From assembly GCA_003555145.1 (NCBI GenBank), contig PWID01000320.1, positions 1-39,019 of the forward strand: DNA of 39,019 bases. The letters are read 5' to 3'. Below are positions 2,738 through 39,019 of this stretch, piece after piece (the first letter of the stretch is position 1; every line of letters starts with the position of its first letter). The notes beneath the pieces are model-generated. The model was not told where the DNA came from, ran no database searches, and saw nothing but the letters and a program-made list of their open reading frames with translations. This DNA comes from Balneolia bacterium (GTDB lineage Bacteria; Bacteroidota; Rhodothermia; Balneolales; Cyclonatronaceae). Position numbers and translations under genes: made by a program.

Positions 2738-5168
2738 GTATTTTATCGCTAAGGTTTTTTTGTCAACACGCATTTTACGCCAATCTGCATTGAGCGCTAT
2801 CCGCATCAATTTATTCTCTTGCTTAGCAGAACCCTTACGGCCTGGATCTAAATATGCCGGACCAGGCCTCTTTGCGTTCTGCTTGATTTGCCTGCTTTTG
2901 ATTCCCTGCCCCTTTTCAGCTCTTTACGCACAGAGCCAGGACAGACCACTGCAAAACTCGAACGGTGAAAGCGGTATAGTGAGAGATGTGCGTTTCGATG
3001 GCAACAGCGCGTTTGGCAACGGAGAGCTGCAAACGGTTGTTCGAACCCGAACCAACAGAGAAATTTTTGGTATTCCGGGAGCAACCCTTTGGCTCGGGCT
3101 TTACCGTATAAGCAGCCGGCTTGGCGAAGCCCCCCGGATGCTCGACCGAACCACCGTTGGCCAGGATGCAGAGCGTCTTAGATTATTCTACAACAATAAC
3201 GGTTTTTTTAACGCTGAAATCGATACAACGGTCGAAAAGATTCGAGAAGCAAGATATCGCGTAACATATCACATAGATGAAGGTGAGCCGTCTAATATAC
3301 GCTCCGTGCGCTATGAAGGCTTTCCGGACTTCGAAGACGAAAGGATATTGGAGCGATTCTACAGCAGAAGTTCTTTGATTCGATCTGTTGCAGACGACAC
3401 CACATTTAGCGTAGACCGCCAGTATACAGTAGATCTTATAAGCCATGAGCGTAATCGCATCCTGGCTTTACTACACAGAAATGGATTTGCATCGGCCAAC
3501 AGAGATTCCATCATCGCACTTGTGAAACGCGATGAAGACAATCCGCTTGAGCTGGATATGCTTTACCGGATAAATCCCGGCAGTGTTTACTTTTTTGGAG
3601 ATGTGAGAATCAATCTGGAATCACCCGAAGGTGAGTCCGGCACAATTGATTCCGATACGCTTCGCGGAGAGCCCATCACCATTGAGCCAAACGCGATGAT
3701 TATTAATATCGACAGGGTTACGCGTACAAAACCCCGGTTGCTTCAGCAGCGTGTGCTTTTTAAGCCAGGCGAGCGTTTTAACCAGGATATTTATATGGCT
3801 TCTGTTGGTCAGTTTCAGTCGCTGCAGATGCTCACAGTTCGCCAGTTCAGTCTTACCGAAGCTGGTGGGCAGCCCGATTACTCAAGCGAATACCTGCCTG
3901 TACTTTTAAATTTACAGACCCTCCCCCGACACCAGATCCGGACGGACTTGTTCGGGATGCAACGGGTAGGTCTTGGTGCCGGCGCCGGGGTTCAGTATAG
4001 TAACAACAACATTTTCGGATCTGCCGAACGGCTTGAGCTTGGAATGAATACCAGTTTCGAATACATAGCCGGCAGTCAGACCGATCCCAGAAGTATCGAG
4101 GCCTTCGTAAACTACAGCTTCCCACGATTTGCTTTCCCGTTCAGTTCTCTCAACAATAATCCCAATTTCCTGAATCCCAGCACGAGGTTTCAGCTGAGCT
4201 ACGGACAAATACGCCAAATCAATTTCAACGTTGATGACAACGTAAGGTTTAGCACACGTTTCCAGGCTAATCACGACCAAACGACAACCAGCTTTCTGGA
4301 TTTGCTCGAGCTGGAATGGTTCGACGCTAATATTTCTGCCGGTTTCCGGCAGGATATTGAAGACAATATTGAAGACCCCTTATTGGTACAGCTTATTCTC
4401 GAAGATTACCGCCCTCAGTTCAGTTCTATTACAGGTTATACGTTTAGAAATGCTGCGGTCCACCCTATCAGGCGTAACGATGGCTTCTTCCTGGAAACCC
4501 GTATAGAAGTCGGCGGTAACCTGCCACGCATAATTGAAGAAGTATTTATTAATCGCGAAGATTCACTTCGGGGCACGATTCCGTCATTCAGCGTTACCGG
4601 TCGTGAGCTTGCCTACAGCCAGTTTGTAAAGACATCTTTCGACTACAGGCGTTATCACCCTTTAACCAGCAATTCTGTGTTTGCATGGCGAGGTTTTGTC
4701 GGGCTTGCCTACCCCTACGGTTTGAGCAGCACCATTCCTATAAACCGACGGTTCTTCGCTGGTGGTGCCAACGATATTCGCGGCTGGGAGCCACTAACTC
4801 TTGGGCCTGGCGACAACGACCGGACCGTAAATCCGATAAACGGGGGCGACATTAAGCTGGCCGGATTTCTGGAATACCGGAATACGTTCTCGCGAAACTT
4901 CCTTTCTACTAACTGGATATTTGCAGCGTTCACCGATTTTGGCAACGTCTGGACAGGCCCGCGTAATGAAATAGATGAGGGCAAATTCAACTTCAATACC
5001 TTCTGGAATGAAATTGCTGTGGGTTCGGGAGTTGGCATACGGCTCGACTGGGACTTTGTTGTAGTCCGTTTCGACCTGGCATACAGAATTACAGATTTGG
5101 GCAACGAGCCCGGCACGTCTATTTTTGACAGAAATACCATACATTTCGGTATTGGACATTCTTTTTGA
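2736..5168 (+). CDS. BamA/TamA-family outer membrane protein (POTRA repeats plus beta-barrel)
   Basis: Signal-like hydrophobic segment (FAFCLICLLLIPCPFSALYAQ), POTRA-like 'IVRDVRFDGNSAFGNGELQ' and 'IRSVRYEGFPDFEDERI', barrel 'RRFFAGGANDIRGWEPLTLGPG', C-terminal 'HFGIGHSF'. Start codon uncertain (TTG; no ATG before the signal segment). Confidence 0.88.
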   Translation: MYFIAKVFLSTRILRQSALSAIRINLFSCLAEPLRPGSKYAGPGLFAFCLICLLLIPCPFSALYAQSQDRPLQNSNGESGIVRDVRFDGNSAFGNGELQTVVRTRTNREIFGIPGATLWLGLYRISSRLGEAPRMLDRTTVGQDAERLRLFYNNNGFFNAEIDTTVEKIREARYRVTYHIDEGEPSNIRSVRYEGFPDFEDERILERFYSRSSLIRSVADDTTFSVDRQYTVDLISHERNRILALLHRNGFASANRDSIIALVKRDEDNPLELDMLYRINPGSVYFFGDVRINLESPEGESGTIDSDTLRGEPITIEPNAMIINIDRVTRTKPRLLQQRVLFKPGERFNQDIYMASVGQFQSLQMLTVRQFSLTEAGGQPDYSSEYLPVLLNLQTLPRHQIRTDLFGMQRVGLGAGAGVQYSNNNIFGSAERLELGMNTSFEYIAGSQTDPRSIEAFVNYSFPRFAFPFSSLNNNPNFLNPSTRFQLSYGQIRQINFNVDDNVRFSTRFQANHDQTTTSFLDLLELEWFDANISAGFRQDIEDNIEDPLLVQLILEDYRPQFSSITGYTFRNAAVHPIRRNDGFFLETRIEVGGNLPRIIEEVFINREDSLRGTIPSFSVTGRELAYSQFVKTSFDYRRYHPLTSNSVFAWRGFVGLAYPYGLSSTIPINRRFFAGGANDIRGWEPLTLGPGDNDRTVNPINGGDIKLAGFLEYRNTFSRNFLSTNWIFAAFTDFGNVWTGPRNEIDEGKFNFNTFWNEIAVGSGVGIRLDWDFVVVRFDLAYRITDLGNEPGTSIFDRNTIHFGIGHSF

Positions 5169-5193: not shown

Positions 5194-5754
5194 ATGACCA
5201 AGAAAACAGGCTTTTTCGGAAGGATTAAAAAACAAAGCAGCATTGTTTTTAACTCTCGTTTTTTAAACAACCTATCACACCTTGAGGCGTATGAGTTTAT
5301 ACAGCTATGCCATCGTCGCAAATACGACAAAGGTGAATACATCTACCACCAGAATGATCCCGGTAATGGCTTCTACATTATTGAGAACGGTAGCGTTGAA
5401 CTGATAATTGAAGGCGAAAGTCCGGCTGAAGGAGAAGATTCTGTACCAGTAAATATCCTGCTGGATAGCCCCCAAAGCTTTGGCAACCTCAGCCTCAGTC
5501 ACGAAATGAGGCGAATGTCCTCAGCACGGGCTGCCGAAGACACCATAGTACTTGGATTCTTCAGTCCCGATTTCGATACGCTTGAAAAACGGTTTCCTCA
5601 AATTGCGATTAAGGTTCTTGGAGAAATTAACCGGGTGATGGCCGTACAGCTCGAATCAACGATTCAGGAGCTGGGCAAGCTCAGCAGCATTTCAGATGCC
5701 TACCGCCTGCAGTTCGAAACATTTTATACGCAGGAAGATGACACGCTGATTTAA
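5194..5754 (+). CDS. Cyclic-nucleotide-binding (cNMP) domain protein
   Basis: 'CHRRKYDKGEYIYHQNDPGNGFYIIENGSVELIIEG' is a cNMP-binding fold signature. The track ORF starts at 5125 inside the previous gene; ATG at 5194 (MTKKTGFFGRIKK) is the more likely start. No HTH apparent. Confidence 0.82.
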   Translation: MTKKTGFFGRIKKQSSIVFNSRFLNNLSHLEAYEFIQLCHRRKYDKGEYIYHQNDPGNGFYIIENGSVELIIEGESPAEGEDSVPVNILLDSPQSFGNLSLSHEMRRMSSARAAEDTIVLGFFSPDFDTLEKRFPQIAIKVLGEINRVMAVQLESTIQELGKLSSISDAYRLQFETFYTQEDDTLI

Positions 5755-18409: not shown

Positions 18410-18494
18410 CGGAGAGTGAGGGATTCGAACCCCCGGAGACTTGCGCCTCAACGGTTTTCAAGACCGCCGCATTCGACCACTCTGCCAACTCTCC
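18410..18494 (-). tRNA. tRNA-Ser(UGA)
   Basis: Minus strand GGAGAGTTGGCAGAGTGGTCGAATGCGGCGGTCTTGAAAACCGTTGAGGCGCAAGTCTCCGGGGGTTCGAATCCCTCACTCTCCG: acceptor stem GGAGAGT/ACTCTCC, anticodon loop CTTGAAA, long variable arm, GGTTCGAATCC T-arm. Confidence 0.96.
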
Positions 18495-37319: not shown

Positions 37320-37367
37320 AACCCAACAAAAAAGCCGGCTGAAAACCGGCTTTTTTGTTGTTGGGTT
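37320..37367. terminator. Bidirectional intrinsic terminator
   Basis: AACCCAACAAAAAAGCCGG-CTGAAAA-CCGGCTTTTTTGTTG(T)TGGGTT between the convergent ABC permease (+) and PIN-domain gene (-). Confidence 0.85.
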
Positions 37368-37432
37368 GTTTCTATTTGAGTTTAGGGCAATTCAGATCAT
37401 TATATAACGGTCGGTCTTATACCGCTTGAACT

Positions 37433-37837
37433 TTATTTTGTTATAACCTCTAATGGTCTGGCAGCAAATTCCGGAAAAGAACGAAGAATCCGCTTATCCA
37501 TCGTTATCAATTTTAAATTCAGATCTACAGCAAGACTGACGAATTCGCAATCGTATGCAGAGCATTCAGATTTTTCTACCAGACTATAGACTTGAATAGA
37601 GTTTACATGAAACTCCCGGTCTTTCATCTGACTCTCTGCTTTTTCTGATATCTGTAATGCCTCAGAAAGATCAATAAGCTCTTTTCTCAAATAAAGTGTT
37701 ACTACATTTCGAAATTCACTTTTCCATAGTAGAGGTGCTACCCATTCCGAATCCCATTGGAATAATTGGTCACAAAGTTCGGTGTGTTCAGAAGGCAACC
37801 AAAAGTGTGCAAGGATATTTGTATCAACGACAATCAA
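37433..37837 (-). CDS. PIN-domain ribonuclease toxin (VapC/FitB-like)
   Basis: 'MIVVDTNILAHFWLPSEHTELCDQLFQWDSEWVAPLLWKSEFRNVV...SECSAYDCEFVSLAVDLNLKLITMDKRILRSFP': conserved D-x-N, E, D-C-E and D residues. Confidence 0.92.
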   Translation of the reverse strand: MIVVDTNILAHFWLPSEHTELCDQLFQWDSEWVAPLLWKSEFRNVVTLYLRKELIDLSEALQISEKAESQMKDREFHVNSIQVYSLVEKSECSAYDCEFVSLAVDLNLKLITMDKRILRSFPEFAARPLEVITK

Positions 37838-38073
37838 GGTCGGCCTTGATCAATTGCATCCTGAATTTCATCAGCAGACAAACTCCCTTTTACTTTTTTT
37901 CTCATTATTCTTGCCTGACGAAGTACTTCATCAGAAGATATACGGGTTGGTTCAACAGTACGCTCTAAACAAGCAATGATTTCACTATTCATACTGCGGT
38001 GTTGAGCTTCTGCCTGTTGCTTCAACTTCTTATAAATAGAGTCTGGAATATTTTTGACTGTAATGCTCGGCAT
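37834..38073 (-). CDS. Ribbon-helix-helix (Arc/FitA-like) antitoxin
   Basis: 'MPSITVKNIPDSIYKKLKQQAEAQHRSMNSEIIACLERTV' FitA/Arc-type RHH; ATGA overlap with the PIN gene. Confidence 0.9.
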   Translation of the reverse strand: MPSITVKNIPDSIYKKLKQQAEAQHRSMNSEIIACLERTVEPTRISSDEVLRQARIMRKKVKGSLSADEIQDAIDQGRP

Positions 38074-38214
38074 AAGGCTGAGTTTCGTTATGGTGTAATA
38101 ATGAAACTAATACAGGCGGAGGAATATTGCAATAGTGAAAAATAAAACGGCCCAGCGTATAACGGGCGTGACTTTTAGGTCACCAGTTGAAGCGCTTCAT
38201 ATACTGCGTCCAAA

Positions 38215-38439
38215 TTATTTTAAGGCTTTTCGAGCACTTTCTAAAAGTTCAGAATATTTCTTAGAAAATGGTTTCTCAAGCTGCTTTTCTAACACAGCCA
38301 AAAAATTCCATAACGCTTGTTTTTCTGATGGGTCATGAATACTCAATTCATCATCTTCAGAGAATCTTGAAAGAAATTCGAAAAGAACCAGGGCTTCATC
38401 TGAACTTAAAGTTATTTCGACTTTAGTTTCTTTTGGCAT
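38215..38439 (-). CDS. Small hypothetical protein
   Basis: 74 aa from ATG at 38439 (MPKETKVEITLSSDEALVLFEFLSRFSEDDELSIHDPSEKQALWNFLAVLEKQLEKPFSKKYSELLESARKALK); coherent amphipathic helical composition. No family name recognised. Confidence 0.6.
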   Translation of the reverse strand: MPKETKVEITLSSDEALVLFEFLSRFSEDDELSIHDPSEKQALWNFLAVLEKQLEKPFSKKYSELLESARKALK

Positions 38440-38503
38440 CTTAGAAAAAATTTGGGAGCGGTATAACAACTAATTTATAGTCATCATAAATCAAACTCCC
38501 ATA

Positions 38504-39019
38504 TCAATAAAACTCGTTGAACGCCGATCGTACTCTTGGGTCCCGCTCGGCCTCATATCGCTGCTCCAGCAAATCATTCATGCGGTTGGCTGAGAGTCGA
38601 TCCAGATTTGCCAGCGCCAGGTATCTGATGCGCGGATCGGCATCGGTGGTCAGGCCCGGAAGCACTTCTGCAAGCTCCGAAGTATGGTTATGACGGATTA
38701 GCATTCGCATAGCTGTTTCCCGCATAGCGTACGGGAAATCTGTGCTTTCAAGAACATCCAGGCTGGTAAACAGAGCAACATCCTGATCGTCGGCGCGGTA
38801 CAGTTCTTCGATTGCGGCGGCCCGAATTCCGGCCGGACGATTGCCCAGAAGCAGCGATCTGGAGAGCTCGTTAAACTGATCTTCCGACGCGATTCTTCTG
38901 AAAACGCCAATTGCAGCAACAGCAGCCGGCTGATAGGTGGACTGCTGCGCAACCCGGCCAACGGCATTGATTACATCATCGTTGCCCTCGTAGTGCCACA
39001 GCGCGTCGATTGCGGCATG
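38504..39019 (-). CDS. HEAT-repeat protein, C-terminal part (5' end outside window)
   Basis: Manual translation of the frame open to the window edge: HAAIDALWHYEGNDDVINAVGRVAQQSTYQPAAVAAIGVFRRIASEDQ...PAGIRAAAIEELYRADDQDVALFTSLDVLESTDFPYAMRETAMRMLIRH...DPRIRYLALANLDRL...DPRVRSAFNEFY; repeated helical HEAT pattern. The track shows only the last 73 aa because no upstream start lies in the window. Confidence 0.8.
   Translation of the reverse strand, partial: HAAIDALWHYEGNDDVINAVGRVAQQSTYQPAAVAAIGVFRRIASEDQFNELSRSLLLGNRPAGIRAAAIEELYRADDQDVALFTSLDVLESTDFPYAMRETAMRMLIRHNHTSELAEVLPGLTTDADPRIRYLALANLDRLSANRMNDLLEQRYEAERDPRVRSAFNEFY

Follow-up and report, generated by a model that had tools for sequence, protein, structure and literature searches.

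The region at 37402-38467 of the window, by which we mean the whole 39,019-nt stretch of DNA analyzed here, probably represents two gene cassettes that an integron integrase inserted outside of any integron and whose attC sites have since decayed. We assign this reading a probability of roughly 80%. The strongest support comes from other genomes, where homologues of both the toxin-antitoxin pair and the small open reading frame (ORF) of this region appear as cassettes in real arrays. This line of evidence lies outside the argument of the first-pass annotation, which had proposed integron-type cassettes bounded by three short motifs. Its cassette proposal is supported by the array-borne homologues, but two of its three R'/R'' box assignments need correction.

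The segment is absent from related genomes at this locus

The window corresponds to C318, one of the 357 contigs that make up a draft genome of 3.1 Mb. There, the spacer that separates an ABC-2 permease gene from a HEAT-repeat gene holds an apparent insert of about 1.1 kb. Read on the minus strand, from right to left, it encodes a 74-aa ORF, an RHH antitoxin and a PIN toxin. The features are:

38461..38467, minus strand: putative 5' junction, G|TTATACCGCT, at which the small-ORF cassette starts, with the ATG 22 nt away
38215..38439, minus strand: small ORF, 74 aa, 'DEALVLFE' family, assigned by its relatives and the invariant DEALVLFE
38142..38204, minus strand: candidate degenerate attC of the small-ORF cassette, ranked first both with model R2 and in the two-arm comparison
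38081..38132, minus strand: conserved leader, TTGCAATATT block and AGTTTC...GAAACT inverted repeat, aligned over 30 loci
37834..38073, minus strand: RHH antitoxin, FitA-like, 79 aa (PF22513, 52.2 bits)
37433..37837, minus strand: PIN-domain toxin, 134 aa (PF01850, 33.4 bits)
37402..37432, minus strand: putative remnant of the toxin-antitoxin cassette attC, forming the 3' junction, TTCAAGCGG ... CCGACCG|TTATAT

The same flanking pair is found in the sister species G004 and also in G005 and G006, where the spacer contains none of the insert genes and no attC site. In G004, whose permease is 90% identical, alignment of the spacer region revealed that homology ends at 37356 and restarts at 38508; the spacer measures 280 bp there and 1152 bp in the window genome. 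The permease and HEAT genes of G001 are about 4.9 kb apart, and again the insert genes are absent between them. The comparison with relatives that the first-pass annotation had suggested came out in its favor: the segment is not carried at this locus by the relatives examined. Their spacers lack the insert, yet are too diverged to reveal the exact empty site. Since the two flanking genes are convergent, the insert breaks neither of them and none of their promoters.

The RHH-PIN pair belongs to a cassette family

For the detection of attC sites we used a first covariance model built from 20 canonical sites of the order, in which 88% of the cells in the drawn structure are paired and whose covariation score was reached by 0 of 500 shuffles, and a second model, R2, built from 67 attC sites, none of them from the window. 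Being tuned to the order, both models give low scores to attC sites of distant phyla. A regular-expression search for canonical attC was abandoned; it missed true sites because the R' boxes here are mostly GTTATRG.

The matches of the RHH and PIN proteins to PF22513 and PF01850 were over the cut-off, and their genes overlap. The PIN gene starts with TTG in the window and with ATG in the G009 homologue. Homologues of the RHH protein, up to 95% identical, occur in 70 of 129 genomes of the order, and 19 genomes besides that of the window hold a near-full-length copy of at least 75% identity. An alignment of 30 loci revealed that the homologous leader starts at the cassette boundary; it probably holds a promoter and an operator.

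In G009 (contig C210) and G005 (C129) the pair lies between two canonical attC sites within an array, and in G084 and G044 it resides inside arrays of about 10 or more attC sites. Across the 30 loci, an attC of at least 20 bits was detected just upstream of the pair in 11, just downstream in 9 and on both sides in 5, and the end of the upstream attC was always 70-74 nt before the ATG (11 loci). Loci L223 and L224 carry the homologue alone with a downstream attC only, such single cassettes being found in G066 and G097, while at L227 the homologue stands alone with an upstream attC only. The closest relative, L225 (95%), has no detectable attC across its 10 kb contig. By these loci, the RHH-PIN pair is a member of a cassette family. 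It shares a FitA-like antitoxin, a PIN toxin and overlapping genes with pairs of the FitAB/VapBC type, but differs in being carried as a cassette in this order; its activity is predicted from sequence.

The RHH-PIN loci L095 (G093:C216) and L096 (G006:C60) are identical, as are the flanks compared, although their genomes are placed in different families; this points to either misbinning of a contig or a very recent transfer.

The small ORF has cassette-borne relatives in distant lineages

Among the 245 genomes of the class we detected no credible relatives of the small ORF; the two other matches in the class were short (E 0.001 and 0.006). Other lineages contributed 68 relatives, mostly 35-55% identical, to which the DEALVLFE motif is common. 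This family (L153-L220) is widespread and includes members from Proteobacteria, Actinobacteria, Planctomycetes, Bacteroidota and others. Searches of Pfam, PADLOC and PDB with the small ORF returned no family and no function.

In Aliiglaciecola (L173), a relative exactly fills the gap between attC sites at 4883-4981 and 5223-5321 of a long array. An attC also adjoins the relatives in Chryseobacterium (L176), Flavobacterium (L190) and a member of the Steroidobacteraceae (L219); the Flavobacterium copy contains an internal stop. By this comparison the small ORF likely is a cassette gene as well, with at least four family members abutting attC in other lineages. Since our models score distant phyla poorly, counts of cassette-borne relatives are lower bounds. 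Both the RHH-PIN pair and the small ORF thus have homologues that are cassettes in arrays elsewhere.

Two degenerate attC-like sites probably delimit the cassettes

When the window was searched with attC covariance models, as the first-pass annotation had recommended, both sites were picked out, albeit weakly. The top two places in the 39 kb by R2 were 38142-38204 (14.9 bits, E 0.19) and 37402-37446 (14.1 bits, E 0.29), neither of which is significant alone. With the first, smaller model they ranked second and third, below a chance match inside an ORF. A two-arm sequence comparison with 63 attC sites of related genomes, which uses no structure model, placed 38142-38204 on the minus strand first of 38,956 windows, and the 37402 site was the second independent place. 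An Rfam search of the window revealed nothing at these sites, its only match being a tRNA at 18410-18494. Measured against an attC with its R''/L'' and L'/R' arms, both sites are detectable but degenerate.

In the middle site we assign R'' to GTATATG (38204-38198) and R' to GTTTTAT (38148-38142), with the junction between 38148 and 38147. We placed R' there because both arms, GAAGCGCTTCAACTGG and CGCCCGTTATACGCTGGGCCG, have matches among the attC sites known from related genomes, e.g., AAGCGCATCAACTGGGACG...CGCCCGTTATGCACTGGGTCG|TTATGG in G009. This boundary lies 69 nt before the RHH ATG, compared with 70-74 nt in the 11 homologous loci, so that a candidate G|TT boundary is found in register with the cassette homologues. 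The first-pass annotation had taken GTATAAC at 38157-38163 as the middle boundary, a motif that actually falls within the L' arm of this attC. Its GTTATAC was rejected as R', since it would leave 84 nt to the RHH ATG against 70-74 nt in the homologous loci.

The 37402 site appears to be a largely deleted attC, as if R'' and the apex had been lost, and is the weakest point in the argument. The 37433-37446 portion of its R2 match, about half of the match, is PIN coding sequence. This also applies to the TTATAAC (37446-37440) previously read as its R'', which encodes the last codons of the toxin, V-I-T-K-stop; the homologue L087 reads I-I-T-I-stop at this place. The 3' edge of the insert is nevertheless confined between the PIN stop (37433) and a terminator shared with G004 that ends near 37366.

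The three GTATAAC/ATATAAC motifs of the first-pass annotation were located at the positions given there, all in the same orientation, and they enclose the RHH-PIN pair and the small ORF. The window contains 9 copies of RTATAAC, against an expectation of 7.7. The 7-mer by itself is therefore uninformative, while the wider sequence exceeds chance.

The ends of the small-ORF unit are complementary

No attC arm was found upstream of the junction at 38461-38467. The small-ORF unit begins with 21 nt (38445-38465) of which 17 are complementary to 38200-38220, where the R'' end of this unit lies; nowhere else in the window does that strand offer a 17/21 complement. This would agree with a single circular cassette whose R'' and R' ends are paired. 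For the toxin-antitoxin unit no clear pair of complementary ends was found. As 71 of 150 shuffles attain the best value observed, generic inverted repeats of this size are not enriched in the region and were dropped as an argument, so that only the position of the complementary ends counts.

A perfect 10-nt inverted repeat, TTATACCGCT/AGCGGTATAA, connects 37417-37426 with 38457-38466, close to either end of the insert, and is unique in the window. Its copy at 37417-37426 falls inside the 37402 attC remnant. The complement may stem from the R'' of the toxin-antitoxin cassette or of another cassette, or may be due to chance.

Integrases and attC sites in the genome and its family

An intI was also sought elsewhere in the genome, as the first-pass annotation had advised: none was found over the cut-off in the window genome; the sister species G004 possesses one. 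In the window genome (a draft, about 94% complete) no full intI exceeded the TIGR02249 cut-off; it encodes two other tyrosine recombinases, probably XerC and XerD, and a short N-terminal-like ORF. No intI and attI beside cassettes, as in a complete integron, were found in it. Six of the 11 genomes of the family encode an integron integrase over the same cut-off; that of G004 has 326 aa and is 45% identical to the plasmid-borne IntI1 over 97% of its length.

The IntI-like ORF on contig C330 (L067, 9767-10012; 119 aa in one frame, 117 aa from the listed GTG start) matched only model positions 1-82. We rejected it as evidence of a lost integrase because similar short ORFs occur in congeners. Such ORFs, of 106-145 aa, are present in G001, G003, G004 and G005, in the genus and beyond, and may constitute a separate conserved small gene instead of an intI remnant.

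Related repeats, which the first-pass annotation had advised looking for elsewhere, are abundant: all 11 family genomes contain matches to the attC model, 1 to 20 each, some of them far from any intI. The window genome itself has a clear solitary attC of 43 bits on contig C326 and a weaker one of 26.9 bits on C124. The C326 site (L126 1501-1622; G000:C326:8475-8596) is situated between ordinary chromosomal genes, with no evident cassette gene upstream. Contig C1 of the complete congener genome G001 holds 17 attC sites in about eight places and, of an integrase, only broken pieces around 753-758 kb; G001 thus combines scattered cassettes with a dead integrase.

Insertion model and alternative explanations

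We propose that the small-ORF cassette, followed by the RHH-PIN cassette with its own leader, would have been inserted in the same orientation by IntI into a non-integron, attG-like target between the ABC-2 permease and HEAT-repeat genes. The 5' junction would be a bare G|TT, the internal junction the attC of the small-ORF cassette and the 3' junction that of the toxin-antitoxin cassette. The outer junctions would lie at 38467/38466 and 37408/37407, and the predicted empty site on the minus strand would be AAATTAGTTG|TTATATAATG. Decay of the attC sites would have followed insertion, in a lineage that lacked an integrase of its own. With both attC sites degenerate and no integrase detected in the draft genome, the pair has probably ceased to be mobile. 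Toxin-antitoxin addiction might have contributed to retention, and the small ORF is possibly read through from the HEAT gene upstream on the same strand.

The main rival explanation is a shrunken CALIN: the segment would be what remains of a longer array, either a CALIN or an integron whose integrase has gone, instead of one or two cassettes inserted at a secondary site. CALINs of the order with up to ten or more attC hold the same toxin-antitoxin cassette (L222, L226), and the shared orientation of both cassettes agrees with such an origin. On the contrary, the attC-free spacers of G004, G005 and G006, the 5' junction without an attC arm and the common occurrence of isolated single cassettes speak against it, and we regard a longer array as possible but unlikely. 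Considerably more doubtful is a different route altogether, by illegitimate or homologous recombination or by way of a small element bounded by the 10-bp inverted repeats TTATACCGCT/AGCGGTATAA, where the resemblance to attC would be coincidental. The weak individual E-values and the lack of 7-mer enrichment are compatible with this, and the perfect 10-nt repeat (37417-37426 / 38457-38466) could be read as element ends. Yet, no target duplication was seen flanking these repeats, and both sites, which coincide with the predicted ends of genes that have cassette homologues, come out highest in two independent rankings.

Relation to known systems

Insertion by IntI outside of integrons thus remains our preferred reading, and the case would be a degenerate new example of phenomena that are already known, namely CALINs, attG insertions and toxin-antitoxin cassettes. 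Similar to CALINs, it combines cassette genes and attC remnants with no integrase nearby, but it has only two attC sites, far below normal score and one of them largely deleted. Insertion of cassettes at attG sites outside integrons is attributed to Loot et al. (2024) in the papers that cite it (PMC12901181, PMC11023631). The putative event shares with it a chromosomal non-integron site, a bare G|TT 5' junction and an attC on the 3' side; it differs in that the attC is decayed, no integrase was found and the event is deduced from sequence. Sedentary chromosomal integrons carry toxin-antitoxin cassettes, e.g., 19 in Vibrio cholerae (PMC11023631), and these likewise contain a type II pair with its own leader, whereas the window pair lies outside an integron.

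More tentatively, the cassettes of the order, toxin-antitoxin cassettes above all, could largely be free-standing chromosomal insertions made by a distant integrase and then fixed by attC decay. If true, the genomes of the order would be a fossil record of attG-type insertions. The present case shows how far attC can decay before cassette ancestry escapes a covariance model, and that this ancestry can be recovered by cross-genome comparison of homologous genes. The toxin-antitoxin cassette is seen in arrays, in small clusters, inserted singly and with no recognizable attC, and these states offer a ready set for studying how cassettes leave integrons and turn into ordinary genes. The widespread, uncharacterized 'DEALVLFE' family, too, has cassette-carried members.
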